Shown here: positions 2,046 through 44,303 of the stretch, one piece after another
How positions within the stretch are numbered: the first letter of the stretch is position 1
How the letters are laid out: every line of letters starts with the position of its first letter
Assembly (NCBI GenBank): GCA_018715645.1
Contig: DVLE01000039.1
Coordinates: 1 to 44,303, forward strand
DNA length: 44,303 nucleotides
Reading direction: 5' to 3'
Source of the DNA: Candidatus Merdisoma merdipullorum
GTDB taxonomy: Bacteria > Bacillota > Clostridia > Lachnospirales > Lachnospiraceae
Notes under the pieces: model-generated
What the model saw: only the letters and a program-made list of their open reading frames with translations
Database searches by the model: none
Told to the model about the DNA's origin: nothing
Made by a program: the position numbers and the translations under genes

Positions 2046-2088
2046 TACCCGCATAGAATGGGCGTTACAGCGGTGTTTCTTTCTTTTT
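2037..2088 (+). terminator. Terminator after the transposase
   Basis: A 9-bp perfect stem (CCGCTGTAA at 2037-2045 with TTACAGCGG at 2065-2073), extended by an inner CCC/GGG pairing, then a T-rich tract to 2088. The transposase stop codon is inside the left arm. The T-tract is on the plus side, so it mainly ends transposase transcription. Confidence 0.8.
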
Positions 2089-2905
2089 AACTATCAAAGA
2101 CGGGACTATATCGTTTGATATCGTAAAAGACAAAAGCGTTGCACAAATACTTGATATATTTGCCAACAGTTACGTGATTGGTTATTGTCTTATTCGCTGT
2201 AAGGAGCTGACTGACCTTATTCGGAGAAGTCAGATTGCTGATATTGTCCATAAGAAACTCGCTTAGCCGCTGTAAAACCAATGTGTCCGGCAGCGAATAC
2301 TTCTGCACAAGATCTCTTGTAACGATTGTTTCATAAACCTCCTTGATATAGCGGATTCTGTCTGCTTCTGTTTTATAAACGTAAGAACCTGCCAATCCCC
2401 CCCTTATGGAATAAGCCTCAAACAACTTCTCTTTATCATCTGTTTCATCATAATACCGGCAGTATTCCCGAAAACTGAAGGGGAACACATGAATCCCGAT
2501 ATAACGTCCGGTAAATAGAGTTGCCAGATCCGCACTCAGCAAAAATGCATTGGAACCTGTAATATAAATATCATATTTCCTCTTCGAATAAAGACTGTTG
2601 ACCGCCAGCTCGAAACTCGGACACATTTGAACTTCATCCACAAAAAGATAGTTTGTTTTTCCCGCTTGATAATGTTCTTCTACATACGCATGAAACGAAT
2701 GATATTCTTTGAGTTTTTCATAGGTCATATCCATAAAGTCAATAAAAATGATATTGATGTTTTCAAAATGACCTTTCAGATACTCAATGTATGCCCTCAT
2801 CAATTCTGACTTTCCCGACCGGCGAATACCAGTAATAATTTTAATGTCCGGAGTTTGATTTAACTCGATGATTCTATTTAGATACTCTGTTCTCGTTATT
2901 ATTTT
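2087..2905 (-). pseudogene. AAA-family ATPase (AAA_14/DUF4143), truncated by the IS
   Basis: Resembles AAA_14 ATPases with a C-terminal DUF4143 domain. Walker A is GIRRSGKS near residues 27-34, Walker B is YLFVDEVQ, and the TGSNAFLLS sensor-like segment follows. Family members, and the paralogue next door, are about 400-435 residues. This frame stops after about 272, and similarity to the paralogue breaks just after an Arg-Tyr pair at about 2,107; the last residues (SPVFDS) are read from IS sequence. The start taken is the GTG at 2905, behind GAGGG and downstream of a clear promoter; the frame is open further upstream only through a TTG that would leave almost no leader. Function of the family is unsettled. 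The C-terminal half is missing, so it is probably inactive. Confidence 0.75.
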
Positions 2906-2920
2906 CACATGCGCCCTCGC

Positions 2921-2953
2921 TTTCAAAAAATAAATATTTTTATTTTTTTGAAA
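2921..2953 (-). promoter_or_regulatory. AT-rich hairpin in the ATPase leader
   Basis: Inverted repeat in the 5' leader of the truncated ATPase gene: TTTCAAAAAATAAA (2921-2934) faces TTTATTTTTTTGAAA (2939-2953), with one extra base in the second arm. It ends a few bases before the GAGGG ribosome site, so it could affect ribosome access. The role is inferred. Confidence 0.35.
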
Positions 2954-2968
2954 CCATTCTTGCAATCT

Positions 2969-2997
2969 ATTATACTATCATAAAATAGTATATTCAA
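2969..2997 (-). promoter_or_regulatory. Promoter of the truncated ATPase gene
   Basis: On the minus strand TTGAAT (2997-2992), a 17-base spacer and TATAAT (2974-2969). It overlaps the last codons of the upstream ATPase gene, so the downstream copy has its own promoter. Predicted transcription start is near 2962. Confidence 0.65.
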
Positions 2998-4282
2998 GGC
3001 ATTTCGGGTCAAGCAGAAAATCATAGATGTTTATGGTCAGGATACCATATTCATCATACTGCGTTGGCACCATGTCCCTGGTAATGATGATTTTCTTGAA
3101 AGAATCATCAATCTTTCTGAATGGTCTGACCTCCTGCGTGCGCTTTGCTTCATCAGGCAGAGTGTAGGCGGATTGAATATAGTATCTGGAAGAACCTAGA
3201 TTACACACAAAATCAACTTCCAACTGCTTACGCGTTACTTTCCCGTTCCGATCTTTTTCAGCGACAGGTACAACTCCTACGTCCACACTGTAACCACGCA
3301 TACGAAGCTCATTATAAATCACATTTTCCATGGAATGGGTCTGTTCAAACTGGCGAAAGTTAATTCTTGCATTCCGAAGTCCAAGGTCAGAAAAGTAATA
3401 TTTTTTTGGGGTTTCAATATATGCCTTTCCCTTGATGTCATAGCGCTGAGCAGACTCGATCAGGAATGAATCTTCAAAATAATCCAGATACTTTTTAATG
3501 GTATTGGCAGTTATTTTAGATTTCTTCGCCGTCCTAAAAGTGTTTTTAAGCTTCTCCGGATTGGTCAGAGAGCCGATTGCAGAAGAAAGAATGTTCAGAA
3601 GATCTTCCAATTCGCCGATGTTTTTAACACGGTTCCGCCTAACTATATCCTGGATATATATTTCACTGAACAGACTCTGTAATGCCGCAGCTTTATCATT
3701 TGCCCCAGCACGCAGAACGACTAAGGGAATACCGCCATAGAGCATATATTCGGACAGTCCCATATACTTATCCCCTTCATATACAGACATAAACTCTGCA
3801 AAGCTCAAAGGGTACATATGAACTTCATCACCACGGCCGGCAAACTCAGTAGCGATATCTTTGGACAGGAGCTTTGCATTACTTCCTGTCACAAATACAT
3901 CCATGTTATCCTTGCGCAGATAACTGTTCAGTACAGCTTCAAAACAGTCCAACATCTGGATCTCATCAAGCAGCAAATAATACATTCCATCGTCAACGAC
4001 TTTGGTTCGGACATAAGCCATGAATTTTTCCGGGTCTACCCCACGCTTTTCTTTTTCAATCCCAATAAGACTTTCGCCGATCAGGTACAGATCGTCCGCT
4101 GAATCAAAGGCAAAACGCAGGATATGGCTGGCATCCACACCGCTCTCCAGTAAATGATGATAAAAAAGGTTATTGAGCAGATAAGACTTACCGCACCTGC
4201 GAATGCCAGTGATAATCTTAATGAGTCTGTTATTCTTTCTTTTTATCAATTTGTCTAAATAGAAATCTCTGCGAACCTCCAT
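2978..4282 (-). CDS. AAA-family ATPase with DUF4143 domain
   Basis: Intact 434-residue ATPase. Residues 1-200 form an AAA_14 P-loop domain: Walker A GIRRCGKS at 26-33, Walker B LLLDEIQ at 103-109, TGSNAKLLS at 132-140. The C-terminal half is a DUF4143 region with the restriction-nuclease-like segment EVDFVCN near 355. Such proteins are widespread in anaerobes, often in several copies; their substrate is not established. Start ATG follows AAGGAGG at 4290-4296. The truncated neighbour downstream is a divergent paralogue, so this is a tandem pair. Confidence 0.85.
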   Translation of the reverse strand: MEVRRDFYLDKLIKRKNNRLIKIITGIRRCGKSYLLNNLFYHHLLESGVDASHILRFAFDSADDLYLIGESLIGIEKEKRGVDPEKFMAYVRTKVVDDGMYYLLLDEIQMLDCFEAVLNSYLRKDNMDVFVTGSNAKLLSKDIATEFAGRGDEVHMYPLSFAEFMSVYEGDKYMGLSEYMLYGGIPLVVLRAGANDKAAALQSLFSEIYIQDIVRRNRVKNIGELEDLLNILSSAIGSLTNPEKLKNTFRTAKKSKITANTIKKYLDYFEDSFLIESAQRYDIKGKAYIETPKKYYFSDLGLRNARINFRQFEQTHSMENVIYNELRMRGYSVDVGVVPVAEKDRNGKVTRKQLEVDFVCNLGSSRYYIQSAYTLPDEAKRTQEVRPFRKIDDSFKKIIITRDMVPTQYDEYGILTINIYDFLLDPKCLEYTIL

Positions 4283-4294
4283 TCAGCAACCTCC

Positions 4295-4313
4295 TTGCAA
4301 AAGATTTTTGCAA
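4295..4313 (-). promoter_or_regulatory. Hairpin beside the ribosome site of the intact ATPase
   Basis: An 8-bp perfect inverted repeat (TTGCAAAA 4295-4302, TTTTGCAA 4306-4313, loop of three) touches the AAGGAGG ribosome site. It lies inside a 16-bp direct repeat whose second copy is at 4384-4399. A translational or protein-binding role is possible but unproven. Confidence 0.35.
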
Positions 4314-4399
4314 CCTAATACACTTTTCCGTTCTATTTTATCATGAAACAAATGCCAACTCAATATGTCAGCGCAGCTCACAAAAAAGATTTTTGCAAC
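4299..4399 (+). repeat. Pair of 16-bp direct repeats
   Basis: AAAAGATTTTTGCAAC occurs at 4299-4314 and again at 4384-4399. The copies bracket the ATPase promoter, and the second one overlaps the 3' end of the sirtuin fragment. This may be a recombination or duplication scar. Confidence 0.6.
4335..4363 (-). promoter_or_regulatory. Promoter of the intact ATPase gene
   Basis: On the minus strand TTGAGT (4363-4358), 17 bases, TAAAAT (4340-4335). Position is about 50 bases upstream of the ATG. Confidence 0.5.
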
Positions 4400-4671
4400 T
4401 TTTGGCATTTTTCTCCTTTGCAGATTTCTTTAATCACAGTGTAAATCCAATCCGTCGCTTCGGCCCCTTCTGCAAGGAGCGCCGCCTTTTCATCTTCATT
4501 CAGCCTGCGGGAAAGCACCCGTATGGTTCTTTCGTCCACATGCTCTTTCCCCAGGTTGACGCAGGCATAAACCGCCTTGGGATTCTCCGCTGTCATTCTC
4601 CAAAACGAGTATTTGATAATGACCGGGGTGTTATGTTTATTGCGCGCCAAAAAGTTTGTATAATGCGGCAT
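4378..4671 (-). pseudogene. C-terminal fragment of a SirTM-like sirtuin
   Basis: The readable segment FLARNKHNTPVIIKYSFW followed by RMTAENPKAVYACVNLG matches, residue for residue in most places, the C-terminal part of the intact sirtuin at 6257-7174 (FLELGVGGNTPGIIKYPFW...). The NAD-binding Rossmann core, the zinc site and the catalytic motifs are all missing. The tail after the match is longer than in the intact copy. No good ribosome site precedes the first ATG. It is best read as the remnant of a second, divergent sirtuin gene and not an active protein. Confidence 0.7.
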
Positions 4672-4687
4672 TCCTCATAACTACAAC

Positions 4688-4714
4688 CAGCCGATTGGAT
4701 TGGGCAATCGGCTG
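4688..4714 (-). terminator. Stem-loop after the AlbA_2 gene
   Basis: Perfect 10-bp inverted repeat (CAGCCGATTG 4688-4697, complement 4705-4714, seven-base loop) 18 bases beyond the AlbA_2 stop codon. The following T-run is weak, so termination is likely but not certain. Confidence 0.55.
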
Positions 4715-4731
4715 TATGACAGGTAGTTTCA

Positions 4732-6075
4732 TTATTTTACAATAGTATAACTGGTACTTCTTGCTTTTCCATTCCGCTTTAACAGGTTGTTTTTTACCAG
4801 ATTTTTCAGGATTCTTACAGCAGTAGATGAGCTCACTCCCAGCAATCCGACTACATCATTTCTTGTAACAGCTCCATGTATCCGAACGTATTCCAATACT
4901 TTTTCTTCTCTGGCACTGATTGGTACACCGTCAGAAGCGTTTGTCAACAGTTCTGAAGAAAGTGCTGGATTACTGTCCTTTTCATCTTTTGCATTAACAT
5001 TCGGCAGTATGATCTTGAAGGCATTTTTCGTAGTTTCAATCACAGGTTTTTCCTCCATGCCCTCATATGCCTTCATAATTTTTCCCATTCCAGTACCATA
5101 AGCCTCAATTAAATGCAATCGGTAGAATACATCCGCAAGATCCTGATTTCGACATACGGAAATACCAACCATAATGTCTTCCAGGTCAATTCCCGGCATT
5201 AACCCGCCAATGGACACAAATTCAAGCCGGTCAGCATAAATACTGATAAGCGCACTGGCACTAAAAGAATAATCTCGATGAACCAGTAAATTCAACAATG
5301 CTTCCCTGACAGCCATTTCAGGATAATCCCTGACATCAATTCTCAATAATTTTTTTATAGTTGCATGGGTCTGATTACGAAAATCAATAAAATCATATAC
5401 TTCGTTCATCTGCTGCAGCAGTGACCCGGTGAATTCCCGACGATCCTTAAAAACTGTCTGATCTTTTCCCTGAAAAACAGCAGCCTTAATCGTATGGATA
5501 CATTGATCGGACAAAAGCAGTCCCAAATTGCTGTAAAGGTTATCCTGATCGACCAACTTCAAAGTACGCATTTGCTGCGGGCCAAATTCTATGTTCCGAA
5601 GCTCAAATTCCTTTTTTGCTGCTTCAAATGTAAGTTCCTGATTCAGAGAGCGCATCGCTTCAAAACGGTCCCCATCCGTTTCCTTAATCATACGGCGAAT
5701 CGCCGTGTCAGTAGCCGGAACCGAAGAATAACCCTGCCTGACATATACGCCCTCCGGACGCATTCCTTTTTTTGCAAGATAATAAGGGCGGTCTGTCCCT
5801 CGCTGAATATCCACAACAACGATTTCTTTTCCGCTTTCTTCAATGGTTTTATAGTGCAGAAACATCGTTACATCGGGCTTGATTGCATCCCGCACCATAT
5901 TGCTGATTTGCAAAGATACACCGTCCGGATTGTCCACTCCGATTACCGTACCGTCATCCTGAACGCCGATATACAGTTTTCCACCGTCACAGTTAGCAAA
6001 AGCAATAATTTCCTTTTTGATTTCGTCCACAACAACTTCTTTCAGTTCTATGGTCTCACTTTCCCGAAAAAGCAT
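4732..6075 (-). CDS. AlbA_2 / Schlafen-like ATP-binding regulator
   Basis: A 447-residue protein in three parts. Residues 1-130 are an AlbA_2 (divergent AAA_4) domain with the marker pattern ESETIELK then AFANCDGGKLYIGV. Residues about 240-350 are a GHKL-type ATPase subdomain with REALLNLLVHRDYS and GTGMGKIM. The last 75 residues are a winged helix (AREEKVLEYVRIHGAVTRND onward). Known relatives are often called transcriptional regulators; the target is unknown. The frame is open 32 codons further upstream, but this ATG has AAAGGGA seven bases before it and lies downstream of a perfect promoter, so the shorter start is preferred. Confidence 0.85.
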   Translation of the reverse strand: MLFRESETIELKEVVVDEIKKEIIAFANCDGGKLYIGVQDDGTVIGVDNPDGVSLQISNMVRDAIKPDVTMFLHYKTIEESGKEIVVVDIQRGTDRPYYLAKKGMRPEGVYVRQGYSSVPATDTAIRRMIKETDGDRFEAMRSLNQELTFEAAKKEFELRNIEFGPQQMRTLKLVDQDNLYSNLGLLLSDQCIHTIKAAVFQGKDQTVFKDRREFTGSLLQQMNEVYDFIDFRNQTHATIKKLLRIDVRDYPEMAVREALLNLLVHRDYSFSASALISIYADRLEFVSIGGLMPGIDLEDIMVGISVCRNQDLADVFYRLHLIEAYGTGMGKIMKAYEGMEEKPVIETTKNAFKIILPNVNAKDEKDSNPALSSELLTNASDGVPISAREEKVLEYVRIHGAVTRNDVVGLLGVSSSTAVRILKNLVKNNLLKRNGKARSTSYTIVK

Positions 6076-6108
6076 GCCGCCATCCCTTTCATTGTCATTG
6101 ATGGTTCT

Positions 6109-6137
6109 ATTATAGCAAATCGTTTCAATCGTGTCAA
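6109..6137 (-). promoter_or_regulatory. Sigma-A promoter of the AlbA_2 gene
   Basis: On the minus strand a consensus TTGACA (6137-6132), exactly 17 bases, then TATAAT (6114-6109) with an extended TG upstream of it. One of the strongest promoters in the window; transcription would start near 6102. Confidence 0.85.
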
Positions 6138-6256
6138 ATTTATCAAGTAAATTATGATACGATAATGACACAATTGATACAATAAAGGGCAGTATAAGTA
6201 TCGCGTCTAATTCAAAATATACCTCGGTAACAAATTTCCAATGAATCTGCTGGTTT

Positions 6257-7174
6257 TCATTTTAATTTTTTTAATGCTTCCCCAATATCCCCGTCAATGC
6301 AGATTGATTGCTCCGCAATCTCCCTCGGCGCAGCCGCGTCTCCGTAATTGATACACGCATACGTTGCCTCCGGATTCTGGTACGTCATCTGCCAGAAGGG
6401 ATATTTTATAATACCGGGGGTGTTGCCGCCCACGCCTAACTCCAGGAACAGAATTTTTGTTCCCTTGTGTCGGCAAAGAAAGTCCTCGTACCGATTGGCT
6501 GCGCCATACCAGCCATCGTCTTGAACAAAGGTATCATCGCACCGGAGATTCATAGTCATAGGTCGGCCGCACCTGGGACAGCGGGGTACCAGCTCGGTGG
6601 AAACGCACATTTTGAGGTCCGTCCCTTCCGGCAGCTCTATACCGTTCCCGGTTACACTAAAACCCTGGCTCTCTACCATCTGACAGACAGCGGCTTCATT
6701 GTCGTATGTTTCCTGATGGCAGGGCTTGGAACACTGCCACAGGCCATAATCGCCTTGCGTATAGAAAATTCGTTTTTTATCAAATCCAGCCTTTTGAAAT
6801 TGGTGATCCACATTGGTAGTCAGCACAAAGTAGTCCTTACCCTGCACCAAACTCAGGAGATCATCGTATACAGGCCTGGGCGCGTCCTGATAGCGGTTGA
6901 TGTAGATATACCGGCTCCAGTACGCCCAGTGTTCTTCAAAGGATTCAAACGGATAAAAACCACCGGAATACATATCGCGGAAACCATACTTTTGAATGAA
7001 GTCTCCAAAATATTTCTCAAAGCGTTCCCCGGTATAAGTAAATCCGGCAGAGGCAGAAAGTCCTGCTCCTGCGCCGATAATAACCGCGTCCGCTGTATCA
7101 AGTTCAGATTTCAGACGGGATATTTTATCATAACAGGCGTTTGTAGATTTCATAGTCGATTTCTTTAAAAACAT
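6257..7174 (-). CDS. Macrodomain-linked sirtuin (SirTM-type ADP-ribosyltransferase)
   Basis: A 305-residue SIR2-fold protein. NAD-binding GAGAGLSASAGF is at 34-45, TTNVDHQF at 119-126, a Cys4 zinc site at C148, C152, C199 and C202, and the Rossmann end LGVGGNTPGIIKYPFW near 256-271. Where deacetylating sirtuins have the catalytic His (HG), this one has Gln140 in YTQGDYG. That is the hallmark of class M sirtuins, known to act as protein ADP-ribosyltransferases encoded beside a macrodomain hydrolase. The same arrangement is seen here: it overlaps the macrodomain gene by 47 bases, and its ATG follows AAGGTGAT, suggesting coupled translation. The usual lipoyl-carrier and lipoate-ligase partners of SirTM operons are not in this window. 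Substrate is therefore open. Confidence 0.85.
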   Translation of the reverse strand: MFLKKSTMKSTNACYDKISRLKSELDTADAVIIGAGAGLSASAGFTYTGERFEKYFGDFIQKYGFRDMYSGGFYPFESFEEHWAYWSRYIYINRYQDAPRPVYDDLLSLVQGKDYFVLTTNVDHQFQKAGFDKKRIFYTQGDYGLWQCSKPCHQETYDNEAAVCQMVESQGFSVTGNGIELPEGTDLKMCVSTELVPRCPRCGRPMTMNLRCDDTFVQDDGWYGAANRYEDFLCRHKGTKILFLELGVGGNTPGIIKYPFWQMTYQNPEATYACINYGDAAAPREIAEQSICIDGDIGEALKKLK

Positions 7175-7543
7175 TGAATATCACCTTGATTTGATTGGGA
7201 TTCTGTTGTTGCCAGGTCTTGACTGTTTGGATAGCAATCTTCGCTGCCAGCTCACCTGGAAAATGGAATTCGCCGGTGGATATACAACAAAAAGCAACAC
7301 TTTGCAAACCATAGGCTGCCGCCAGTTCTAAACAAGAGCGATAACAACTTGCCAGCAGCTCACGGGCTTGCTTTGTAACTCTTCCATAAATGATGGGGCC
7401 GACGGTGTGCAGCACATAACGGCAGGGCAGATTGTATGCTTTCGTGATTTTTGCCTCACCTGTGGGGTCTTCTTTCCCCTGAGCCGCCATGAGCTTTGCA
7501 CATTCAAGTCGGAGCTGTATTCCCGCGTAAGTGTGAATGGCAT
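7128..7543 (-). pseudogene. SirTM-linked macrodomain (ADP-ribosyl hydrolase), N-terminus lost
   Basis: Matches the C-terminal half of the zinc-containing macrodomain proteins that accompany SirTM: AIHTYAGIQLRLECAKLM, then PTGEAKITKAYNLPCRYVLHTVGP, then the loop CCISTGEFHFP. Full-length relatives are about 260 residues. Here recognisable sequence begins at about 7,543, and the N-terminal helices, the ADP-ribose-binding start of the fold and the Cys/His zinc loop are gone. The first ATG in frame is at 7490, giving 120 residues, without a convincing ribosome site. The loss coincides with the start of an unrelated gene fragment on the other strand, so a deletion or inversion has joined two broken genes. 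It is probably non-functional, though it may still couple translation into the sirtuin. Confidence 0.75.
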
Positions 7544-7546
7544 CTG

Positions 7547-7963
7547 CCGGGTGTAGCAGTAGTTTTAAGTGGTATGTCCGATATGCTGCAGACAGAAGAA
7601 AACGTAAATACTGCCGCTATAGAATATCCGTTAAACGGCGAAGAATTGTCGAAGTTAGAAAAAATCAGCAATGTACTCCGCAAAAAGATAGCGGTTTCCT
7701 GTACCGGCTGCCGATATTGCTGCGATAATTGTCCGCAAGGATTGGATATACCTTCGCTCCTGTCAGCTTATAACGACTATCGTGACGAAGCGGCCGCATT
7801 AGGAAACAGCTCTATGGCAGCATGGCGGCTGTTCCGTTTGAAAGCATTGCCGGAAGAAAAAATGCCTGCGGCTTGTATTGGCTGCGGAAACTGTACGGCA
7901 CACTGTCCGCAGGCATTGGATATTCCTTTCTATATGAGTGAAATGGCAAATCTGCTGAAATGA
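7547..7963 (+). pseudogene. C-terminal 4Fe-4S part of an aldo/keto reductase
   Basis: Readable from VAVVLSGMSDM, the last strand of the aldo/keto reductase barrel, to the end of the ferredoxin-like tail. Two CxxCxxCxxxCP clusters are visible (CTGCRYCCDNCPQ and CIGCGNCTAHCPQ), as in the iron-sulfur aldo/keto reductases common in clostridia. Those enzymes are about 370-390 residues; the TIM barrel with the catalytic Tyr and the NADPH site is missing. An ATG at 7496 opens the frame but would translate antisense macrodomain sequence, and the next ATG (7574) has no ribosome site. It is a remnant, unless the tail survives as a small ferredoxin. Confidence 0.7.
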
Positions 7964-7992: not shown

Positions 7993-8025
7993 GGAATAAG
8001 ACACTCACACAGAGTGTCTTATTCC
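7993..8025 (-). terminator. Terminator between the reductase fragment and thioredoxin
   Basis: Perfect 14-bp stem (GGAATAAGACACTC 7993-8006, complement 8012-8025, five-base loop). On the minus strand it is followed by TGTTTCTTT, so it ends thioredoxin transcripts; it probably also stops plus-strand readthrough. Confidence 0.75.
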
Positions 8026-8581: not shown

Positions 8582-9328
8582 ATGAGACTGAAAGATAAAG
8601 TTGCCATTATTACCGGAGGGAGCCGTGGCATTGGCTTTGCCGCCGCAGAAAAATTTATAAAGGAAGGCGCCAGCGTCATCCTGACAGCAAGCTCTCAGCC
8701 AAATGCTGATAAAGCAGCGGCAAAATTGAAAGCAAAATATCCCGAAGCAGCAGTAGCAGGAAAAAGCCCTCTGCTGTCCAGTTTGGATTCCGTTCGTGCT
8801 GCGTTCCGGGAAGTTTTTGAAGAATATGGACATATAGATATTCTGGTAAACAATGCTGGTATGTCTGAGAGTACGCCTTTCACTGAATATACGGAAGAAC
8901 TCTTCGACAAGGTTATGGATTTGAACGTGAAAGGCATTTTCAACGCCACAAAGGCAGCCAGCGAATACATGATCTCCCAGGGAAAGGGAGTGATTCTCTC
9001 TACTTCCTCTATGGTCAGTATTTCCGGACAAGCCAGCGGTTTTGCTTATCCCACATCTAAGTTCGCCGTTAACGGCATGACCATATCCCTGGCGCGCGAG
9101 CTTGCCCCCAAAGGCATACGGGTAAATGCGGTGGCCCCCGGCATCACAGAAACCGATATGATGAAGGCCGTTCCTAAAGAAGTGATCGACCCCTTAATCA
9201 GGCAGATTCCTCTGAGACGGTTAGGTCAGCCGGAAGATATTGCCAATGCATTTGCGTTCCTCGCCTCTGACGAGGCTTCTTATATAACCGGCGTGGTGTT
9301 GAGCGTAGACGGAATGGCGAGAGCATAG
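8582..9328 (+). CDS. Short-chain dehydrogenase/reductase (FabG-like)
   Basis: Classical SDR of 248 residues. The nucleotide motif GGSRGIG is near residues 12-18, NNAG near 90, and the catalytic Ser/Tyr/Lys appear as STSSMVSISGQ and YPTSK. The C-terminal part PLRRLGQPEDIANAFAFLAS is typical of 3-oxoacyl-ACP reductase-like members. The gene is alone, away from any fatty-acid cluster, so a detoxifying or sugar/steroid alcohol substrate is as likely as FabG. AAGGAGG stands seven bases before the ATG. It shares an operator with the divergent thioredoxin gene. Confidence 0.88.
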   Translation: MRLKDKVAIITGGSRGIGFAAAEKFIKEGASVILTASSQPNADKAAAKLKAKYPEAAVAGKSPLLSSLDSVRAAFREVFEEYGHIDILVNNAGMSESTPFTEYTEELFDKVMDLNVKGIFNATKAASEYMISQGKGVILSTSSMVSISGQASGFAYPTSKFAVNGMTISLARELAPKGIRVNAVAPGITETDMMKAVPKEVIDPLIRQIPLRRLGQPEDIANAFAFLASDEASYITGVVLSVDGMARA

Positions 9329-37827: not shown

Positions 37828-37943
37828 AACGCTAAATTCCTTTATTTCCTGTATTTTCAATGTTTACAGTCATTTTCATTGTTCTTGATTTCATACATTT
37901 TTTCTTGTATTGTCACGTATTTTCTTATGTTTTCCTCTGCAAA

Positions 37944-37980
37944 AGTGGTAAAATAAATGGTAAATTATTTCATTTTACCA
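37944..37980 (+). promoter_or_regulatory. Candidate integrase arm-binding repeats
   Basis: GTGGTAAAAT (37944-37953) and ATGGTAAATT (37956-37965) are direct repeats 12 bases apart, and the complement of the first recurs at 37971-37980. Tn916 integrase is known to bind short direct repeats near the element ends; these resemble such sites. The flanking 12-bp inverted repeat could also act as the integrase-gene terminator. Confidence 0.5.
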
Positions 37981-37989
37981 CTTGCCTTT

Positions 37990-39189
37990 TTACTCACCCA
38001 CTACACGCCGTAACTCGCTTTGCGCATCCTCAAAATTCACATGCGTGTATGTGTTTAAGGTTACGCTTATATCAGAATGCCCCATGATATACTGTAATGT
38101 TTTGGGGTTCATTCCGCTCTTTGCCATGTTGGAGCAAAAAGTATGTCGGCATACATGAGGGGTAACTTTCGGCATCTGCACCTTGTAAATGCTATTGTAC
38201 TTTTCAAGAATACGTTGCATATATTTTTCCCAATGTAAAGCAACCATAGGCATATCATTTTTATCCAAAAACAAAAAACCTGTATATCCGTCTATGATTG
38301 GCTCTATTTTGGGAGCTTTCCGATTTTTAATAATTTTTCGGAAACACTCTGCAACCTCATCAGTCATGGGTATATAGCGAATACCTTTTTCCGTCTTAGG
38401 TGCTTCAATCACATATTCCATTTTACTTGTTCGTTGTAACTGATGATTGACCCGAATACACTTTTCTTTAAAATCAATATCCGCAATCGTCAGACCACAA
38501 AATTCTGATATGCGCAAACCTGTATGAAATAATATAAAAATACCGTCATAATACCTGCAAAAATGCTTGTCTTCTTGAACAAATCTCAAATATTCTCTTT
38601 GTTGTTTTCTTGTAATGGCTTCTCTGGTTACACTATCGTTCACAACAACTGACGCCAACTCAAACTGGAACGGATTTTTACGGATTAAATCGTCATTTTC
38701 TGCCATTTGAAAAGCAGGTCTGAGTACCCCTCTAATTGTATGAATAGAACTGTACCCTCGTCCGTCTACTTTCTGTAGCTTAATCAACCACGCCTTTGCG
38801 TCAGACAGCTTTATCTTATCAATCCTCTTGTTACCGAATGGGTCTTTCTTCAAAATGTTTATAACGGTCTTATAGCCTGCTTCGGTGTTGTGCCTTACCC
38901 CAGTTTTTAAGGAAACATATTTCTCAACCAATGACAATACTGTATAATTACCGCCATTTGATACAATCTGATTAAACATATCCTGTTCAATCTGCTTTTC
39001 CTTTTCCCGAAGCGATAAATCTTTACGCTTTCCCTTCGGATAGGGGTCATTATGGTCTAACCGCCAACTATAAACATCTTTTGTGTTCCCATCCGTATCT
39101 TGATATGTAAAACGATACCTACCGTCAGCCCTTTGGGTCTCTCCAGTGTGTAAAATCCTGTTTCTTTTGTCTCTCCTTTTTTCACTCAT
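37990..39189 (-). CDS. int: Tyrosine recombinase/integrase (Tn916 Int type)
   Basis: 399 residues. The N-terminal arm-binding domain (GRYRFTYQDTDGNTKDVYSWRL) has the Tn916-Int three-strand pattern, then a SAM-like core-binding domain and a catalytic domain with Arg in TGLRISEFCGL, HVCRH (His-x-x-Arg) and GHSDISVTLNTYTHV containing the nucleophile Tyr. Intact. It would integrate and, with Xis, excise the element. GAAAGGAG precedes the ATG. The spacer from xis has a terminator-like hairpin. Confidence 0.93.
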   Translation of the reverse strand: MSEKRRDKRNRILHTGETQRADGRYRFTYQDTDGNTKDVYSWRLDHNDPYPKGKRKDLSLREKEKQIEQDMFNQIVSNGGNYTVLSLVEKYVSLKTGVRHNTEAGYKTVINILKKDPFGNKRIDKIKLSDAKAWLIKLQKVDGRGYSSIHTIRGVLRPAFQMAENDDLIRKNPFQFELASVVVNDSVTREAITRKQQREYLRFVQEDKHFCRYYDGIFILFHTGLRISEFCGLTIADIDFKEKCIRVNHQLQRTSKMEYVIEAPKTEKGIRYIPMTDEVAECFRKIIKNRKAPKIEPIIDGYTGFLFLDKNDMPMVALHWEKYMQRILEKYNSIYKVQMPKVTPHVCRHTFCSNMAKSGMNPKTLQYIMGHSDISVTLNTYTHVNFEDAQSELRRVVGE

Positions 39190-39220
39190 GGTTGCTTGTC
39201 TCCTTTCATATTCTTAGTGA

Positions 39221-39337
39221 ATCACGACTGTCGCGTCGCTCCTCGAATGCTCATGCAAACATGACATTCTCATCGCCACTCACGCAAAAAGAGACCCAAA
39301 CTCGTGATTATATACTACCACAAATCAAGGTCTCTTT
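39221..39337 (-). promoter_or_regulatory. Alternative stem-loops between xis and int
   Basis: A terminator-like stem (AAAGAGACC 39288-39296 with GGTCTCTTT 39329-39337, then TTTTTGC on the minus strand) has in its loop TCGTGATT (39303-39310), which can instead pair with AATCACGA at 39221-39228, beside the int start. The two folds compete, so integrase expression may be attenuated. A further TCATG/CATGA hairpin lies between. Confidence 0.5.
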
Positions 39338-39355
39338 CCATAAGCAAACCATCAT

Positions 39356-39574
39356 TTATACTACCGTCGCATGGTCTAAAAATTCTTCAAACTTCTGTCT
39401 CTTAATCAGTATACGGTTGCCATTCATAATGATAAAATCTGCTTCGGGGTGTTCGTCTGCTATCATGCGTAGTTTATTTTCTCCTATATGGTAGTATTCT
39501 GCCGCTTCTGTAATTGTCAGAACATATCTTTTCCATACCGGAATTATATCTTGTTGCATTTCATTTTTCTTCAT
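39356..39574 (-). CDS. xis: Excisionase (Tn916 Xis type)
   Basis: 72 residues with a winged-helix fold: VWKRYVLTITEAAEYYHIGE, then NKLRMIADEHPEADFIIMNG and NRILIKRQKFEEFLDHATVV. Matches Tn916 Xis in size and motif. It bends the element ends to favour excision. The start MKKNEMQQDI follows CAGGAG; the open frame begins 22 codons earlier without a site. Confidence 0.9.
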   Translation of the reverse strand: MKKNEMQQDIIPVWKRYVLTITEAAEYYHIGENKLRMIADEHPEADFIIMNGNRILIKRQKFEEFLDHATVV

Positions 39575-39673
39575 GCTTTTCTCCTGTACTATGCCTATAG
39601 AATATATACGAGTATTTATTTCTGATAGGAACATTGACATTTCTCATAATATACCTTCTTCTATTTAAATTTA

Positions 39674-40822
39674 TTAAGCTATTTCTTCCTGCGCTTTTCT
39701 GAGCCATAACAATTTTAGCAGTTCAAGGTCATCTTTTAAGGATTGTTTTACTAATGTATCTTTATGCTTTTTAAGCCAAAGCTGTACATCATCATTCGGC
39801 TCATATCCATCTTTATATATATCATACAGACATTCAAGCAAGTCCATTGATGTTTCTTCTCCCCAAATCGCATCACATTTGTACAGAGCCGGAAACAATC
39901 CCGAACCCTTAATAAGGTGTATGAGCGAAGTGGTGAAATCATTATCTCTTGGGCTTTCCAATCGTAAGCGTAAAAAACTCTCTTTTGACTGTTCGATTAA
40001 GGCTGTTGTAAAATCCGTATATTTTTTACATTCCAAGTCGTAGAACCTATATTTTTCCGTTATTTTGTCGGCAATTAAATCTTTCAGCTTTTCTTCCTTG
40101 ATTCCCATGATAATATCTGTCAACTGATGTGCATAGGTTCCTTTGAAAACCGCTTCAAAACGCACCCATGAGTTTGTATTCAAGGCTTCTTTAAAACGGA
40201 ATCCTTTCTGTTCAACCTGTTCCAATCTTTTATCGTAAACCCTTAGGAAAAGTCTTGTGCCTGTCTTCCTGCTTCCCACGTAAAACGTACTTGCCTTGCC
40301 ATCAACCTCAAATGCGGTAATCCTCGAATGGTTGGTTTCGCTTTTGTGGTCATGTATTTCCAGACGGTTATTCATGAGTTTCTGGTAGATATCATCCACC
40401 GTTATATCCCAATTCTGATAATCTACAGTAAAATCCACCCTGCTTAGGCGGACGTGGTAGGACTCTGATTGTATGGATACCAAGAATCTTTTAATGTTCG
40501 TCTGCCCCCTTTGGCAATACACAGCCCAGCTATATGCACTAAATTTCACAACCACGCCCATTTTAGGGTATGACGGGTGATAAGCAACTGCGAAGTAAAA
40601 AGGATTATCTCCATATTGGTAAGCGGTTGCGTAACCCTGCGGCGTTTTTCCGTCTAAGTCCTTTTGCATTCCGAAAATTTGTTCCAGATTCGCCAGTTTT
40701 ACAAACTCCGTAATCATGCTTTCAGCCTTTAGCATCCAATCTGCCAAATCTTTCACAAGGGTTTTATCTGCCGCCAAAACAACTGTCAATTCATCAATAC
40801 CTACAAATATTTCTGGATTCAT
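39674..40822 (-). CDS. Rep_trans-type replication initiator / relaxase (MobT group)
   Basis: 382 residues (389 from an ATG at 40843). The conserved core LSRVDFTVDY near 130 and RLFLRVYDKRLEQVEQKG near 200 with the Tyr are typical of Rep_trans replication initiators, the fold of the Tn916 Orf20/MobT relaxase. It would nick oriT and start rolling-circle transfer. Unlike Orf20 it lacks an N-terminal helix-turn-helix. The internal ATG is favoured because AAGG lies eight bases before it. A hairpin that may be oriT lies 70-85 bases upstream. Confidence 0.85.
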   Translation of the reverse strand: MNPEIFVGIDELTVVLAADKTLVKDLADWMLKAESMITEFVKLANLEQIFGMQKDLDGKTPQGYATAYQYGDNPFYFAVAYHPSYPKMGVVVKFSAYSWAVYCQRGQTNIKRFLVSIQSESYHVRLSRVDFTVDYQNWDITVDDIYQKLMNNRLEIHDHKSETNHSRITAFEVDGKASTFYVGSRKTGTRLFLRVYDKRLEQVEQKGFRFKEALNTNSWVRFEAVFKGTYAHQLTDIIMGIKEEKLKDLIADKITEKYRFYDLECKKYTDFTTALIEQSKESFLRLRLESPRDNDFTTSLIHLIKGSGLFPALYKCDAIWGEETSMDLLECLYDIYKDGYEPNDDVQLWLKKHKDTLVKQSLKDDLELLKLLWLRKAQEEIA

Positions 40823-40883
40823 GTTAATTACCTTGCATTTCATATATCTTTTTATATTTTATTACATAGCTACTATTGGTTCT

Positions 40884-40914
40884 GGAGCTGGGGTAATTAC
40901 ATTACCCCAGCTCC
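40884..40914 (-). other. Candidate oriT hairpin
   Basis: Perfect 14-bp inverted repeat (GGAGCTGGGGTAAT 40884-40897, complement 40901-40914, three-base loop) over the coupling-protein stop codon and into the spacer before the relaxase gene. No T-run follows. In Tn916 oriT lies in the same gap between the coupling-protein and relaxase genes. Confidence 0.5.
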
Positions 40915-42204
40915 CAGTGTATGCAAAACATCAAAGTTCAACGTAGGAAATTCACACAATCTGGGCTTATTCGCTACTGCCGGATACGTGAATACCCCAT
41001 CGCCGACTTCCATTTTCCGCAATGGAATATCCGCACCTGCCCCGAATGCTGTGACATATGTCTGATCTTCGGCATTTCCCAAGACAACTTTCCAAGGAAG
41101 ATTATCCCGAATAAACGTCGGAATATTGTTGCTCCCTGCCTGTTGCATGACAATCCAGAGGAAAAAGCCTGCCTGACGCCCTTTCAGAACGATTGAGGAT
41201 ATCAGGTTGTTTACATGGTCACGTATCTTCTTATCTTTCGATTGCAGAAGCAGAGAAAAGTCTGCAAACTCATCAAATATCAAAACATGAGGGGAAAGGT
41301 CAAAGTCTCTGTAGTCACCATCAATTTTTTTCGATAAATGCCTTTTCATTTGACGTTGCCTTTCCTGCATTTGGGAAACAAATGTTTCCAACAATGCGAC
41401 AATTCCATCAAAGTCATCCGCTGTTGTTTCCGGCGACACTCGTTCTCCAATCAGAGCGATGCTGGACGCTTTCGGATCAGCAAAATACAAATGATACGTA
41501 ATAGGCTTTATAAGCATTTGGAGCAGATATCCATGCAGTGCATAAGATTTTCCAGAACCCGTCTGACCTGCTATAAGTTGGTGTGTAAGCGTTAAATTCG
41601 TGTAAGAATCAATAAACAGTTCATATTTGCCCAGTAAATTGGAATGTGCTTTAAATTCTTCAAAGCTGTAAAATACCAATCTCCGCTCAAGAGAAGAATC
41701 ATAGAAGTCAAAACGATAGTGGTTAGCATCATCCGTCAAATACACCTGTTCGACAACGTATCTTCCCAGTGACGAAGAAATATCCAGTTTGCTTAATTTG
41801 TTATTAAATTGGATGCTGTTTTTTATCCAGATTGTGCCGCTTTTAAAATCTGGTGTGAAGTCAACCGTAATCCAAGGTATCTCCGCCCATTTAACAGCAC
41901 CTAATTTTTTAGTTGTATAAATTCCCGCATCCAGCAGATGCTTTCTTAGACCACGCACCAATTTATAATGTTTCCATGCATATTTTATGCCCCGGTCTAT
42001 ATGGTTACAAAATGCCCATGTTACAGCAGAAATGGCGAGCGGAATAAAACTTACAATGCCGCATATCAATGCGGTTGTTTTGAACATAGTGATTCCAGAT
42101 ATGTTCCCAGCGTGGCAAGATGCCACGCCTAAAATGGAACACATTACAAACCATGCGCACAGGAATTCGCTTTTGATCCGGCGGTCTGTTTTAATTCTTT
42201 CCAT
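40897..42204 (-). CDS. TcpA/FtsK-SpoIIIE-type coupling ATPase
   Basis: 435 residues: two membrane helices near 15-65, then an FtsK-like P-loop domain with Walker A AGQTGSGKSYAL near 215, Walker B HVLIFDEFADF near 300 and QAGFFLWIVMQQAGSNN. It brings the nicked DNA to a conjugation pore. Close to Tn916 Orf21 in plan. It overlaps the DUF961 gene by 14 bases. Without a pore in this element, it would have to use that of a helper. Confidence 0.9.
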   Translation of the reverse strand: MERIKTDRRIKSEFLCAWFVMCSILGVASCHAGNISGITMFKTTALICGIVSFIPLAISAVTWAFCNHIDRGIKYAWKHYKLVRGLRKHLLDAGIYTTKKLGAVKWAEIPWITVDFTPDFKSGTIWIKNSIQFNNKLSKLDISSSLGRYVVEQVYLTDDANHYRFDFYDSSLERRLVFYSFEEFKAHSNLLGKYELFIDSYTNLTLTHQLIAGQTGSGKSYALHGYLLQMLIKPITYHLYFADPKASSIALIGERVSPETTADDFDGIVALLETFVSQMQERQRQMKRHLSKKIDGDYRDFDLSPHVLIFDEFADFSLLLQSKDKKIRDHVNNLISSIVLKGRQAGFFLWIVMQQAGSNNIPTFIRDNLPWKVVLGNAEDQTYVTAFGAGADIPLRKMEVGDGVFTYPAVANKPRLCEFPTLNFDVLHTLGAGVM

Positions 42205-42580
42205 TTAAATCACCAACTTTCTTAATATCTCTGAAGCGTAACAGCAAATCAAAGCCTATTACATAAGATTTCTCTGGCATGAACCCAACCAAAGACACCT
42301 TGTCGCCTTTTTTTAAGGGCAATTCTGAATGCCCGTTAAGGATAGTGACATCGAACGTTTGCAAGACGTTGTTTTCCCGTTTACGCCCGTTCTTGTCCTT
42401 ACCGTAGTCCGTATTATCATGTAAAATGAGCAAGGTTACAATGACACCTTTGTCTTCCGGATTCTTCTTCGATTGATAAGGTTTTTGAGAAACGAACTGA
42501 AATGTATTATTCGTTGCCTTTAGAAATGCTTCATCATTAAACGTGGTCTTTGTATATACCCATGAATTTTGGATTGCCAT
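42191..42580 (-). CDS. DUF961 conjugative-element protein
   Basis: 129 residues, WVYTKTTFNDEAFLKATNNT early and LPLKKGDKVSLVGFMPEKSY late, an OB-like beta-rich pattern as in Tn916 Orf22/Orf23 (DUF961). Exact role unknown; it always accompanies the coupling protein. AGGAGA precedes this ATG; the open frame begins 16 codons earlier. Confidence 0.85.
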   Translation of the reverse strand: MAIQNSWVYTKTTFNDEAFLKATNNTFQFVSQKPYQSKKNPEDKGVIVTLLILHDNTDYGKDKNGRKRENNVLQTFDVTILNGHSELPLKKGDKVSLVGFMPEKSYVIGFDLLLRFRDIKKVGDLNGKN

Positions 42581-42684
42581 AATCCTTATCTCCTTTCTTT
42601 TCATTATTTTTTCATTTTTTTCTGTCAAAGAGCTCTTTTCAGTATAGAATTACTATATCAAAACTAATGCGGCTTGTTCCGTCG

Positions 42685-42710
42685 CCATATGCGGTATATA
42701 CCGCATATGG
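42685..42710. promoter_or_regulatory. 26-bp perfect palindrome
   Basis: CCATATGCGGTA at 42685-42696, its complement ending at 42710, no gap. It lies five bases after the regulator stop and about 105 bases before the DUF961 start. No T-run, so a protein-binding or replication site is more likely than a terminator. Confidence 0.6.
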
Positions 42711-42714
42711 TACG

Positions 42715-43149
42715 CTACGGATTTCCATGTTTGCTTTTCAAACGTTTTGCATTTTCTTCCGAAAGAAGAACAAGCAATTTTCCCAGTGTAAAATCATCTA
42801 TATCAGAGCTTTTTTGGCGTATAGCAAAATATATTCCGTTTTCTTCTATGTTTTTCAGAATGTCTTCGTTCTGATAGTTGGCTTTTATCTCGCATAATGT
42901 AAGCGGAGGAAGTCCCAAAATGTCAATAATTTCAGTAGTAGAAAAATCCAATACCTGAAACACGTTTAGAAGGCTAATTATATCAGTCAGGCATTTACCA
43001 CTTTCCCAGCGTTGATAAGTATCAAGCGATTTTCCAACCGCATTGGCAACTTCCATTTGTGTTAATTCGAGTTTTATGCGATGTTTACGAAGTTGCTCCC
43101 TTAATTTTTTTTGATAATTTTCACAGAAACTTGCAATATTATTTTTCAT
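42715..43149 (-). CDS. Cro/C1-type HTH regulator of the element
   Basis: 144 residues: helix-turn-helix at about 22-75 (KHRIKLELTQMEVANAVGKS, LDTYQRWESGKC) and a C-terminal part of unknown fold. It is upstream of the transfer genes and probably represses them. Ribosome site is weak (GAGAAAA), and lies in an inverted repeat touching the start codon. Confidence 0.82.
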   Translation of the reverse strand: MKNNIASFCENYQKKLREQLRKHRIKLELTQMEVANAVGKSLDTYQRWESGKCLTDIISLLNVFQVLDFSTTEIIDILGLPPLTLCEIKANYQNEDILKNIEENGIYFAIRQKSSDIDDFTLGKLLVLLSEENAKRLKSKHGNP

Positions 43150-43178
43150 ATGAATTTTCTCATATGATGCGCATCATA
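43147..43178 (-). promoter_or_regulatory. Palindromes over the regulator start
   Basis: CATATGA (43147-43153) faces TCATATG (43160-43166) across the ribosome site and start codon, and next to it is a 16-bp perfect palindrome, TATGATGCGCATCATA (43163-43178). Likely autoregulation by the HTH protein. Confidence 0.5.
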
Positions 43179-43369
43179 ATTACTTTCTTTCTTAGGTGGA
43201 TATCCTGGTCATTTAATCACAATTTACAATTTCTACATTTACAACTGCTGTAATGGTATTCATTACCATTACAGCAATGTAAGTTTATAAAAAATTTATA
43301 GAATTTTAATATTAAATTACTTGACAACCGATTTCAAAATGCTAGCATTATATTTGAAAGAAGTAAGAG

Positions 43370-43489
43370 ATGAGAGAGAAAGAGAGAAACAAGTTGTTAA
43401 ATAATTTATTTATTCAAAAAAAAGAGGGGAACGGGGATTTTCTCCGAGAAAAAGTTTTTGCGTATGCAAAAACGTCTATATTAAGATAA
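43370..43489 (+). CDS. Possible 39-residue peptide
   Basis: ATG to TAA, very charged (MREKERNKLLNNLF onward, many Lys/Glu/Arg). A TTGACA element and palindrome precede it, but the -10 box and the ribosome site (AAAGAAG) are poor. Not recognised. It is listed only because it is the best small frame here. Confidence 0.2.
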   Translation: MREKERNKLLNNLFIQKKEGNGDFLREKVFAYAKTSILR

Positions 43490-43616
43490 GTGAAATTGTA
43501 TAATTATTAAATTGAATGAATAAAAAAGGAGGGGACAAGAGCCGCTCTTTTTATATTTTAAAAGAAAGCATAAAATGAATGAAAGAGTCTTTCTGACCGC
43601 TTCTGGAAATATGCCA

Positions 43617-43682
43617 CAACAGGCTGGCAGAAACAAGGGTAAAATGAACTACTTTGTAGCCCTTGCTTCTGCCAGCCTGTTG
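43617..43682. terminator. Long stem-loop
   Basis: A 16-bp arm (43617-43632 with 43667-43682), one A/C mismatch, then CAAGGG/CCCTTG (43634-43639 with 43660-43665); loop about 20 bases. It is downstream of the repeat-protein remnant on the minus strand. A terminator or the remains of a small mobile repeat both fit. Confidence 0.45.
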
Positions 43683-43867
43683 CGGACTGAGGATAATCAA
43701 GCGGTTAAGAAAGAGTATGCCACCGGGTAACAATCGACTTCCAGCATTGGAAATTGCCCCTCAGCAAGAGTCACATAACAATCCCTGCAAGAAATCATCA
43801 CGTTTCATCTTTCTACGTTATTACCACATCAACTCTAATATCAATTCAACTTTATGTAGATTGCTTC

Positions 43868-44303
43868 TTATTCTGTATCATCGTAATCCTGTGAATAAAT
43901 TATTGTTCCATCGGCATTGACAAACTGTACACGAATGTACTTAAGGATTACACCCGCATCTTCTCCATTCAGCTTATGCTGTGCCATATGGAACATGAAG
44001 TCATTCTCAACGGTGCTGGAGCATCCACAGAAACATGTTCAGCGCTTCACCTGAGTCGTCTCTCCGTCCGGGTTCTCCGTATCAGGATTTTCCGGCTATT
44101 CCGTATCCGGTGTCTCATCAACCTTCGGCTCATCAACCTCCGGCTCATCAACCTCCGGCTCATCGACCTCCGGCTCATCAACCTCCGGCTCATCAACCTC
44201 CGGCTCATCAACCTCCGGCTCATCAACCTCCGGCTCATCAACCTCCGGCTCATCAACCTCCGGCTCATCAACCTCCGGCTCATCAACCTCCGGCTCATCA
44301 ACC
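43868..44303 (-). pseudogene. 3' end of an EPEVD-repeat protein gene, with two in-frame stops
   Basis: On the minus strand the 15-base repeat reads Glu-Pro-Glu-Val-Asp, about 11 to 12 times from the right edge, ending in [11 protein letters not shown] and a TAG at 44098-44096. The same frame goes on as PENPDTENPDGETTQVKR, then TGA at 44041-44039, then TCFCGCSSTVENDFMFHMAQ to IIYSQDYDDTE and TAA at 43870-43868. The downstream part keeps protein-like composition and a Cys-x-Cys...His-x3-His pattern, so it was once coding. Acidic Pro-rich repeats are typical of surface or exported proteins. The 5' part lies outside the window. Confidence 0.6.
44117..44303 (+). repeat. 15-bp tandem repeat array
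   Basis: Unit CATCAACCTCCGGCT repeated without gaps about 12 times to the window edge. The first unit has a T in place of C (CTTCGG) and one near 44162 has CATCGACC; the rest are identical. It is coding on the minus strand (EPEVD) and should vary in copy number. Confidence 0.9.

Follow-up and report, generated by a model that had tools for sequence, protein, structure and literature searches.

How did a gene for a class M sirtuin (SirTM) come to lie, itself intact, beside the broken gene of the Zn-macrodomain hydrolase with which it forms a reversible ADP-ribosylation pair, and is the transferase thereby left unopposed? The window, a stretch of 44,303 nucleotides that makes up the whole of contig C8 in a MAG of 97 contigs and 87% completeness, carries a complete SirTM gene (305 aa) on the minus strand at 6257-7174. 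Upstream of it lie a C-terminal remnant of the macrodomain gene on the same strand (7128-7544) and, head to head with that remnant, the back third of an aldo/keto reductase gene on the plus strand (7544-7963). The gene break is true and cleanly defined, and it is most likely the product of a recent deletion. It is best seen as a recent genetic accident that killed genes rather than as a new machine.

Two gene remnants and their join

The first-pass annotation placed the end of macrodomain similarity at about 7,543, where reductase similarity starts, and this boundary holds up. Similarity to Zn-macrodomains on the minus strand and similarity to the reductase on the plus strand meet at a single point (7541-7544), where they overlap by 2 bp, and alignments to the parent genes put the breakpoint at a dinucleotide, AT, that is common to both (7542-7543). 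On the macrodomain side, the minus-strand frame at 7131-7544 corresponds to residues 125-262 of an intact Zn-macrodomain protein of genome G008 at 78% identity (tblastn), and 7128-7541 covers positions 122-261 of the 265 in NCBIfam model NF003163, scoring 215 bits against a cut-off of 272. What is left amounts to the last ~137 codons and the stop, ~120-124 N-terminal codons being gone. The open reading frame with a start codon spans 7128-7490; similarity extends to 7541-7544, where there is no start codon. On the reductase side, 7544-7963 encodes the last 139 codons and the stop of a protein that in G098, a genome of another genus, has 376 aa with an Aldo_ket_red domain and two 4Fe-4S motifs. 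Codons 238-376 are kept, both 4Fe-4S motifs included, and the first 237 of 376 are missing, which leaves the Aldo_ket_red barrel incomplete. The claim that both genes lost their N-terminal parts is thus borne out and, given a correct contig, the alignments show this loss directly.

The macrodomain remnant lacks everything before A121 (in the numbering of the 263-aa protein of G098), that is, the three-helix bundle region, the NAAN motif and the zinc-loop stretch CFVPCHGC. The putative zinc-binding residues were assigned by reading the alignment together with the description in PMC11490716. According to the same source, the S. aureus protein SauMacro loses zinc when residues 1-70 are removed, and zinc binding tracks activity. 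Since helix bundle, NAAN and zinc loop are all missing, the linked hydrolase is very probably dead, and neither fragment is likely to work as its parent enzyme. The overlap between the two minus-strand genes is a separate matter. The segment first singled out, 7128-7963, takes in the first 47 bases of SirTM, and such an overlap is normal for intact loci: the aligned macrodomain and SirTM ends overlap by 41-47 bases in 53 of the 59 loci that have an intact macrodomain directly upstream.

Age and origin of the break

The reductase remnant is 90.7% identical in DNA to the gene of G098 and 84.3% identical to that of G157, both matches starting exactly at 7542; the two genomes hold the full gene in differing surroundings. 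By comparison, the best matches in 15 genomes of the window's own genus reach 33-49% protein identity (65% over 75 residues in G010). A DNA identity of 91% to another genus, against such values within the genus, suggests that the reductase gene was acquired horizontally. Codon changes number 12 on the window's branch (7 synonymous, 5 non-synonymous), 14 on that of G098 (11 and 3) and 35 on that of G157 (27 and 8), and at a further 10 codons no two of the three agree. The window's branch has a slightly high proportion of non-synonymous changes, but on 12 codons. By these comparisons the break is younger than the split from the reductase copy of G098. Measured against SirTM, the macrodomain remnant has not evolved faster than intact copies, with a ratio of non-synonymous differences of 0.86 in the 15 pairs that include the window and 0.88 (sd 0.15) in 105 other pairs. 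Because synonymous differences in this comparison, at ~0.57-0.82 in the pairs printed, are near saturation, the macrodomain timing is weak and the reductase gives the better bound. Together these comparisons support a recent break.

The first-pass annotation had suggested looking for the lost segment elsewhere in the genome and for another macrodomain there. The N-terminal part of the macrodomain had no match elsewhere in this 87%-complete MAG at an E-value of 1, in a search that included no positive control of its own; at that level of completeness, a second Zn-macrodomain or the missing halves may lie in DNA that escaped assembly. The NF003163 family search, which finds full copies in relatives, finds the remnant alone in this genome; the same model also matches seven of 14 control genomes, E. 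coli among them. Across 41 genomes, a Zn-macrodomain exceeds the family cut-off in 12 (the window's own genome being counted in the 41 and not in the 12). The N-terminal part of the reductase gave ten matches in the genome, the best of them at 41% identity on contig C82; at such identities (41% or less) they were taken as paralogues and rejected as the lost half.

We favour, with a probability of about 0.72, a recent illegitimate deletion that fused the back half of the Zn-macrodomain gene to the back third of the reductase gene, an instance of ordinary decay of a reversible ADP-ribosylation pair. Such an event would have removed ~1.1 kb of coding sequence, together with whatever spacer there was, using 2 bp of microhomology, and would have joined the macrodomain gene to a divergent, horizontally acquired 4Fe-4S aldo/keto reductase gene so as to leave two dead fragments. 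SirTM would have retained its start, which lies inside the kept 3' end of the macrodomain gene, and would have lost its linked eraser and the upstream end of its operon, and with the latter probably its expression. Decay of this kind recurs, if rarely, in SirTM loci. Since no relative was found with the macrodomain and reductase genes head to head, we infer the ancestral order and, from it, a deletion rather than another rearrangement. Of the two events first proposed, deletion or inversion, the single breakpoint supports the idea of one event that took both N-termini; the data are most simply explained by a deletion between two divergent genes, with no need for an inversion.

It is possible, but unlikely, that two unrelated pieces of DNA were joined by assembly or as a chimera in the MAG. 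The window is, after all, one contig among 97, and its reductase part is 91% identical to the gene of another genus, against ~70% for the SirTM region. Moreover, in a search of 397 genomes of the family, the window's own included, 134 of which gave a match, the macrodomain matches listed end at or before 7543, the reductase matches listed start at or after 7542, and among these matches the own genome alone spans the join. Likewise, a 231-base stretch around the join is matched in 3 of 16 genomes of the genus and is spanned in the own genome only. However, the join has only 2 bp in common between its two sides, no 14-mer of the 82 bases around it is repeated in the window or in 20 kb of contig C49, and GC content takes no step there (0.48, 0.46, 0.44). 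The lost halves were also not found on the other contigs, although the family model does find full copies in relatives. This negative result speaks as well against an inversion or transposition in which these halves first moved off and were lost later. That the surroundings of the reductase differ between G098 and G157, and that no relative establishes the ancestral order, would be compatible with such a history, but there is a single junction and no insertion element was seen at the join, and we consider this course of events distinctly improbable.

Even with a real break, the short macrodomain frame (7128-7490) could in principle be a selected, working product, for example one that serves translational coupling to SirTM. 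It offers 120 open codons without a stop and keeps the overlap with the SirTM start. We give this scenario very little credence: the frame has neither helix bundle nor NAAN nor zinc loop, and the same short macrodomain was seen in none of the relatives covered by the family profile search and the genus search. With no such close relative at hand, purifying selection on a short macrodomain would look the same as recent breakage.

SirTM without its linked hydrolase

The preferred deletion leaves the SirTM gene itself untouched. Its product matches PDB 5a3a (E 2.6e-68), and in an alignment of eight SirTM proteins the motifs TTNVDH and TQGDYG are conserved, with TTN present and QG in place of the catalytic HG. 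The assertion of an intact sirtuin next to a broken hydrolase therefore agrees with these alignments, which describe a complete SirTM and a linked hydrolase that is very probably inactive. According to PMC4518038, SirTM genes in bacteria stand next to macrodomain genes within a single operon. The window has a C-terminal remnant in place of the adjacent intact macrodomain; its gene is still a SirTM by sequence, linkage being usual and not universal.

How usual it is can be gauged from the best 80 of at least 594 SirTM pattern matches in named genomes. Three of these 80 stretches fail a simple check and were kept in the counts (L125, which lacks TTN, and L142 and L155, with one stop each). Among the best 80, an intact macrodomain adjoins SirTM in 65 (59 upstream, 6 downstream) and lies 1.36 kb away in one (L134); it is truncated in two (L148, L173) and absent in six whose flanks reach 2 kb or more on either side (L130, L132, L133, L159, L165, L170), and six in which none was seen count as undecided because a contig ends within 2 kb (L121, L125, L152, L153, L180, L196). 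The notion that known SirTM operons keep both genes is thus right for most of these loci and does not hold for those with a truncated or absent partner. By eye, the overlap frame still shows a macrodomain tail in L133 and, less clearly, in L130. L148 keeps ~40 macrodomain codons. In L173 (Anaeromassilibacillus sp. An250; 6452-6986) the macrodomain breaks off at residue ~112, where it meets the initial ~24 codons of a PNPOx-type gene. In a 98%-complete relative, G018, a DDE transposase between two copies of the 10-base direct repeat CGGTAGGACC splits the macrodomain beside an intact SirTM (contig C44, L083 1406-3440).

Separation from SirTM need not mean loss. A Zn-macrodomain search covered 18 genomes: 12 from the group of 14 whose macrodomain is truncated or missing (all but L152 and L196), and six others. 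In 10 of those 12, whose scanned SirTM lacks an intact macrodomain on its stretch, a Zn-macrodomain exceeds the family cut-off elsewhere in the assembly. The genome of L148 gave no Zn-macrodomain family match at all, that of L173 gave its truncated copy and two lower-scoring macrodomain matches, and in G018 the only other family match falls below the cut-off. Seven of the 12 genomes have a single SirTM match at E 1e-20, and in an eighth (G431) the second match is a tail fragment only. The pair is the rule, then, and separation happens; loss with no intact copy found was seen in four genomes, the window's included, each subject to the completeness of its assembly.

Whether the transferase acts unopposed depends on its being made. 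The first-pass annotation regarded an unopposed transferase as unusual. Loss of the linked eraser is indeed uncommon, if not unique, but the argument presumes that SirTM is expressed, and the break took everything upstream of macrodomain codon ~121. Because the upstream end of the operon is gone, SirTM may be silent rather than unopposed. The nearest minus-strand gene upstream beyond the join encodes a thioredoxin (PF00085; 8065-8418) and is followed by a terminator-like 14-bp stem on the same strand at 7993-8025, a match to consensus only, which could end transcripts before they reach the macrodomain remnant and SirTM; two such sites were found in the region, against 1.5 expected from shuffles. 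Promoter-like sites occur at chance level (5 found, 3.6 expected), and one of them, on the minus strand at 7652-7623, could serve SirTM. An SDR gene follows on the plus strand at 8582-9328. No protein of GcvH type (PF01597) matched in this genome at E 0.001, and lipoylated GcvH-L, the known target of SirTM, was accordingly set aside as a candidate substrate here.

A second SirTM gene lies on contig C49 of the same MAG (L081 10044-10952). The family profile search gave no macrodomain match on that contig, and a PNPOx-ferredoxin gene ends 11 bases before the SirTM start.

An alternative compatible with the deletion is that SirTM has been kept and is active, either as a one-way ADP-ribosyltransferase or with an unlinked hydrolase to reverse it. 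The gene is intact, the second SirTM of the MAG is also without an adjoining macrodomain, no intact Zn-macrodomain was found in the genomes of L148, L173 and G018, and in L173 the PNPOx-type gene upstream retains its start, so that transcription may still reach SirTM there. We nevertheless hold this alternative to be rather doubtful for the window, given the lost upstream end of the operon with a terminator-like stem before the join, a candidate promoter that belongs to hits at chance level, the lack of a GcvH-type target in the genome searches and the intact copies elsewhere in most other genomes searched. On its own, the break in the window is no evidence for an unopposed transferase. More generally, one may tentatively propose, at odds we would not put high, that SirTM still works in some gut Clostridia from which all Zn-macrodomain erasers have been lost, the modification being one-way or undone by some other enzyme, in which case the window, L148, L173 and G018 would each represent an independent natural knock-out of the eraser. 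Genomes that combine an intact writer with a broken eraser would reveal whether an eraser is required at all, and An250 is a named strain that is not labelled a MAG.

A putative cassette array behind SirTM and likeness to known systems

The array of genes behind SirTM may matter more than the gene break. Directly 3' of SirTM lies a SLFN_AlbA_2/HATPase_c_4 gene (Pfam; 4732-6171), followed on the same minus strand by the junction motif GGCGCGCAATAAACAT (4633-4648), which leads into a displaced SirTM tail from codon 251 (4545-4649 in all), a short mosaic ORF (4378-4671), an AAA_14/DUF4143 gene (2978-4282) and an AAA_14 gene (2087-2965); a DDE transposase gene lies on the plus strand at 282-2045. 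In the mosaic ORF the displaced tail runs into the C-terminal part of an AbiEi protein (match to the AbiEi model at E 7.7e-8), with 93% DNA identity to the AbiEi gene of G098.

Short SirTM 3' fragments of this kind, ~0.4-3.5 kb downstream of SirTM and in the same orientation, amount to 17 displaced tails in 14 of 93 records (18 entries less one SirTM remnant, L087 8530-8763). In most of them codon 251 (AACACCCC, N-T-P) comes first, and GGYGCGCAATAAACAW, absent from that place in native SirTM, stands immediately before it; the tails of L132 and L146 are without the motif. A search of 1.15 Mb with up to two mismatches gave 22 occurrences of the motif, of which 17 were read as leading into a SirTM-tail start, against 1 occurrence for the reversed control, a count that is not independent because the records were chosen for SirTM. 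In whole genomes the exact motif occurs at nine sites in 6 of 61 (reversed control 0), six followed by a SirTM tail and three not. Within the window, allowing three mismatches gave one match, an exact one, where 1.45 were expected. Matches in 16 viral contigs were discounted as likely chance, a judgement made without a control.

The cargo between SirTM and tail comprises SLFN_AlbA_2, AAA_14/DUF4143 (PADLOC candidate PDC-S01) and AbiEi/AbiEii or RhuM-like genes (PDC-S05/S23); in L083 and L084 no ORF of at least 90 aa lies between the two on that strand. Of the 47 loci that have 3 kb of flank on each side, 6 carry such cargo downstream and none carries it upstream, the query proteins coming partly from the same loci. 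A displaced tail is closest to the SirTM of its own locus in 6 of 12 rankable cases (not counting two entries of L087, nor L203, whose contig lacks a SirTM); the tails of the window and C49, 97% alike, are not closest to their own SirTM. Stacks of defence-type cargo, in units that close with GGYGCGCAATAAACAW and a codon-251 tail, were noted in the window (4545-4649, 2087-6256), in L081 (12504-12639) and in L083, L084, L087, L103, L126, L133, L143, L166, L171 and L203. From its sequence this looks like a modular array, with codon 251 of SirTM as the site at which units of SirTM tail, cargo and motif are gained, duplicated or exchanged, each junction being a conserved 16-nt motif with a displaced SirTM tail. 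No recombinase was noticed in the short units. The data suggest that small defence-type genes have repeatedly landed at the 3' end of SirTM. In a thin search of the open-access literature on mobile DUF4143 or SirTM in Lachnospiraceae, no mention of such an array was met.

At the other end of the window, a Tn916-type integrase and a Rep_trans replication protein lie at 37990-40843 in a low-GC stretch (0.39 over 37901-44303); further ORFs, on to 43149, are transfer-gene-like by eye. The region is probably part of an integrative element.

Of the known systems, the reductase fragment resembles aldo/keto reductases with a C-terminal 4Fe-4S dicluster domain (PF00248 + Fer4), whose two cysteine motifs it keeps at 91% DNA identity to the copy of G098; it differs from them in lacking the first 237 of 376 residues. 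The closest counterpart of the locus is the SirTM/Zn-Macro pair as PMC4518038 and PMC11490716 describe it. The window departs from that pair in that its macrodomain is a C-terminal remnant and no GcvH-type carrier was found in its genome; it also has no PNPOx-ferredoxin gene upstream of the macrodomain, where one lies within 60 bases in 21 of 66 intact loci. It shares with the pair the same QG motif, the order of macrodomain then SirTM, and a 47-base gene overlap like that of most intact loci.
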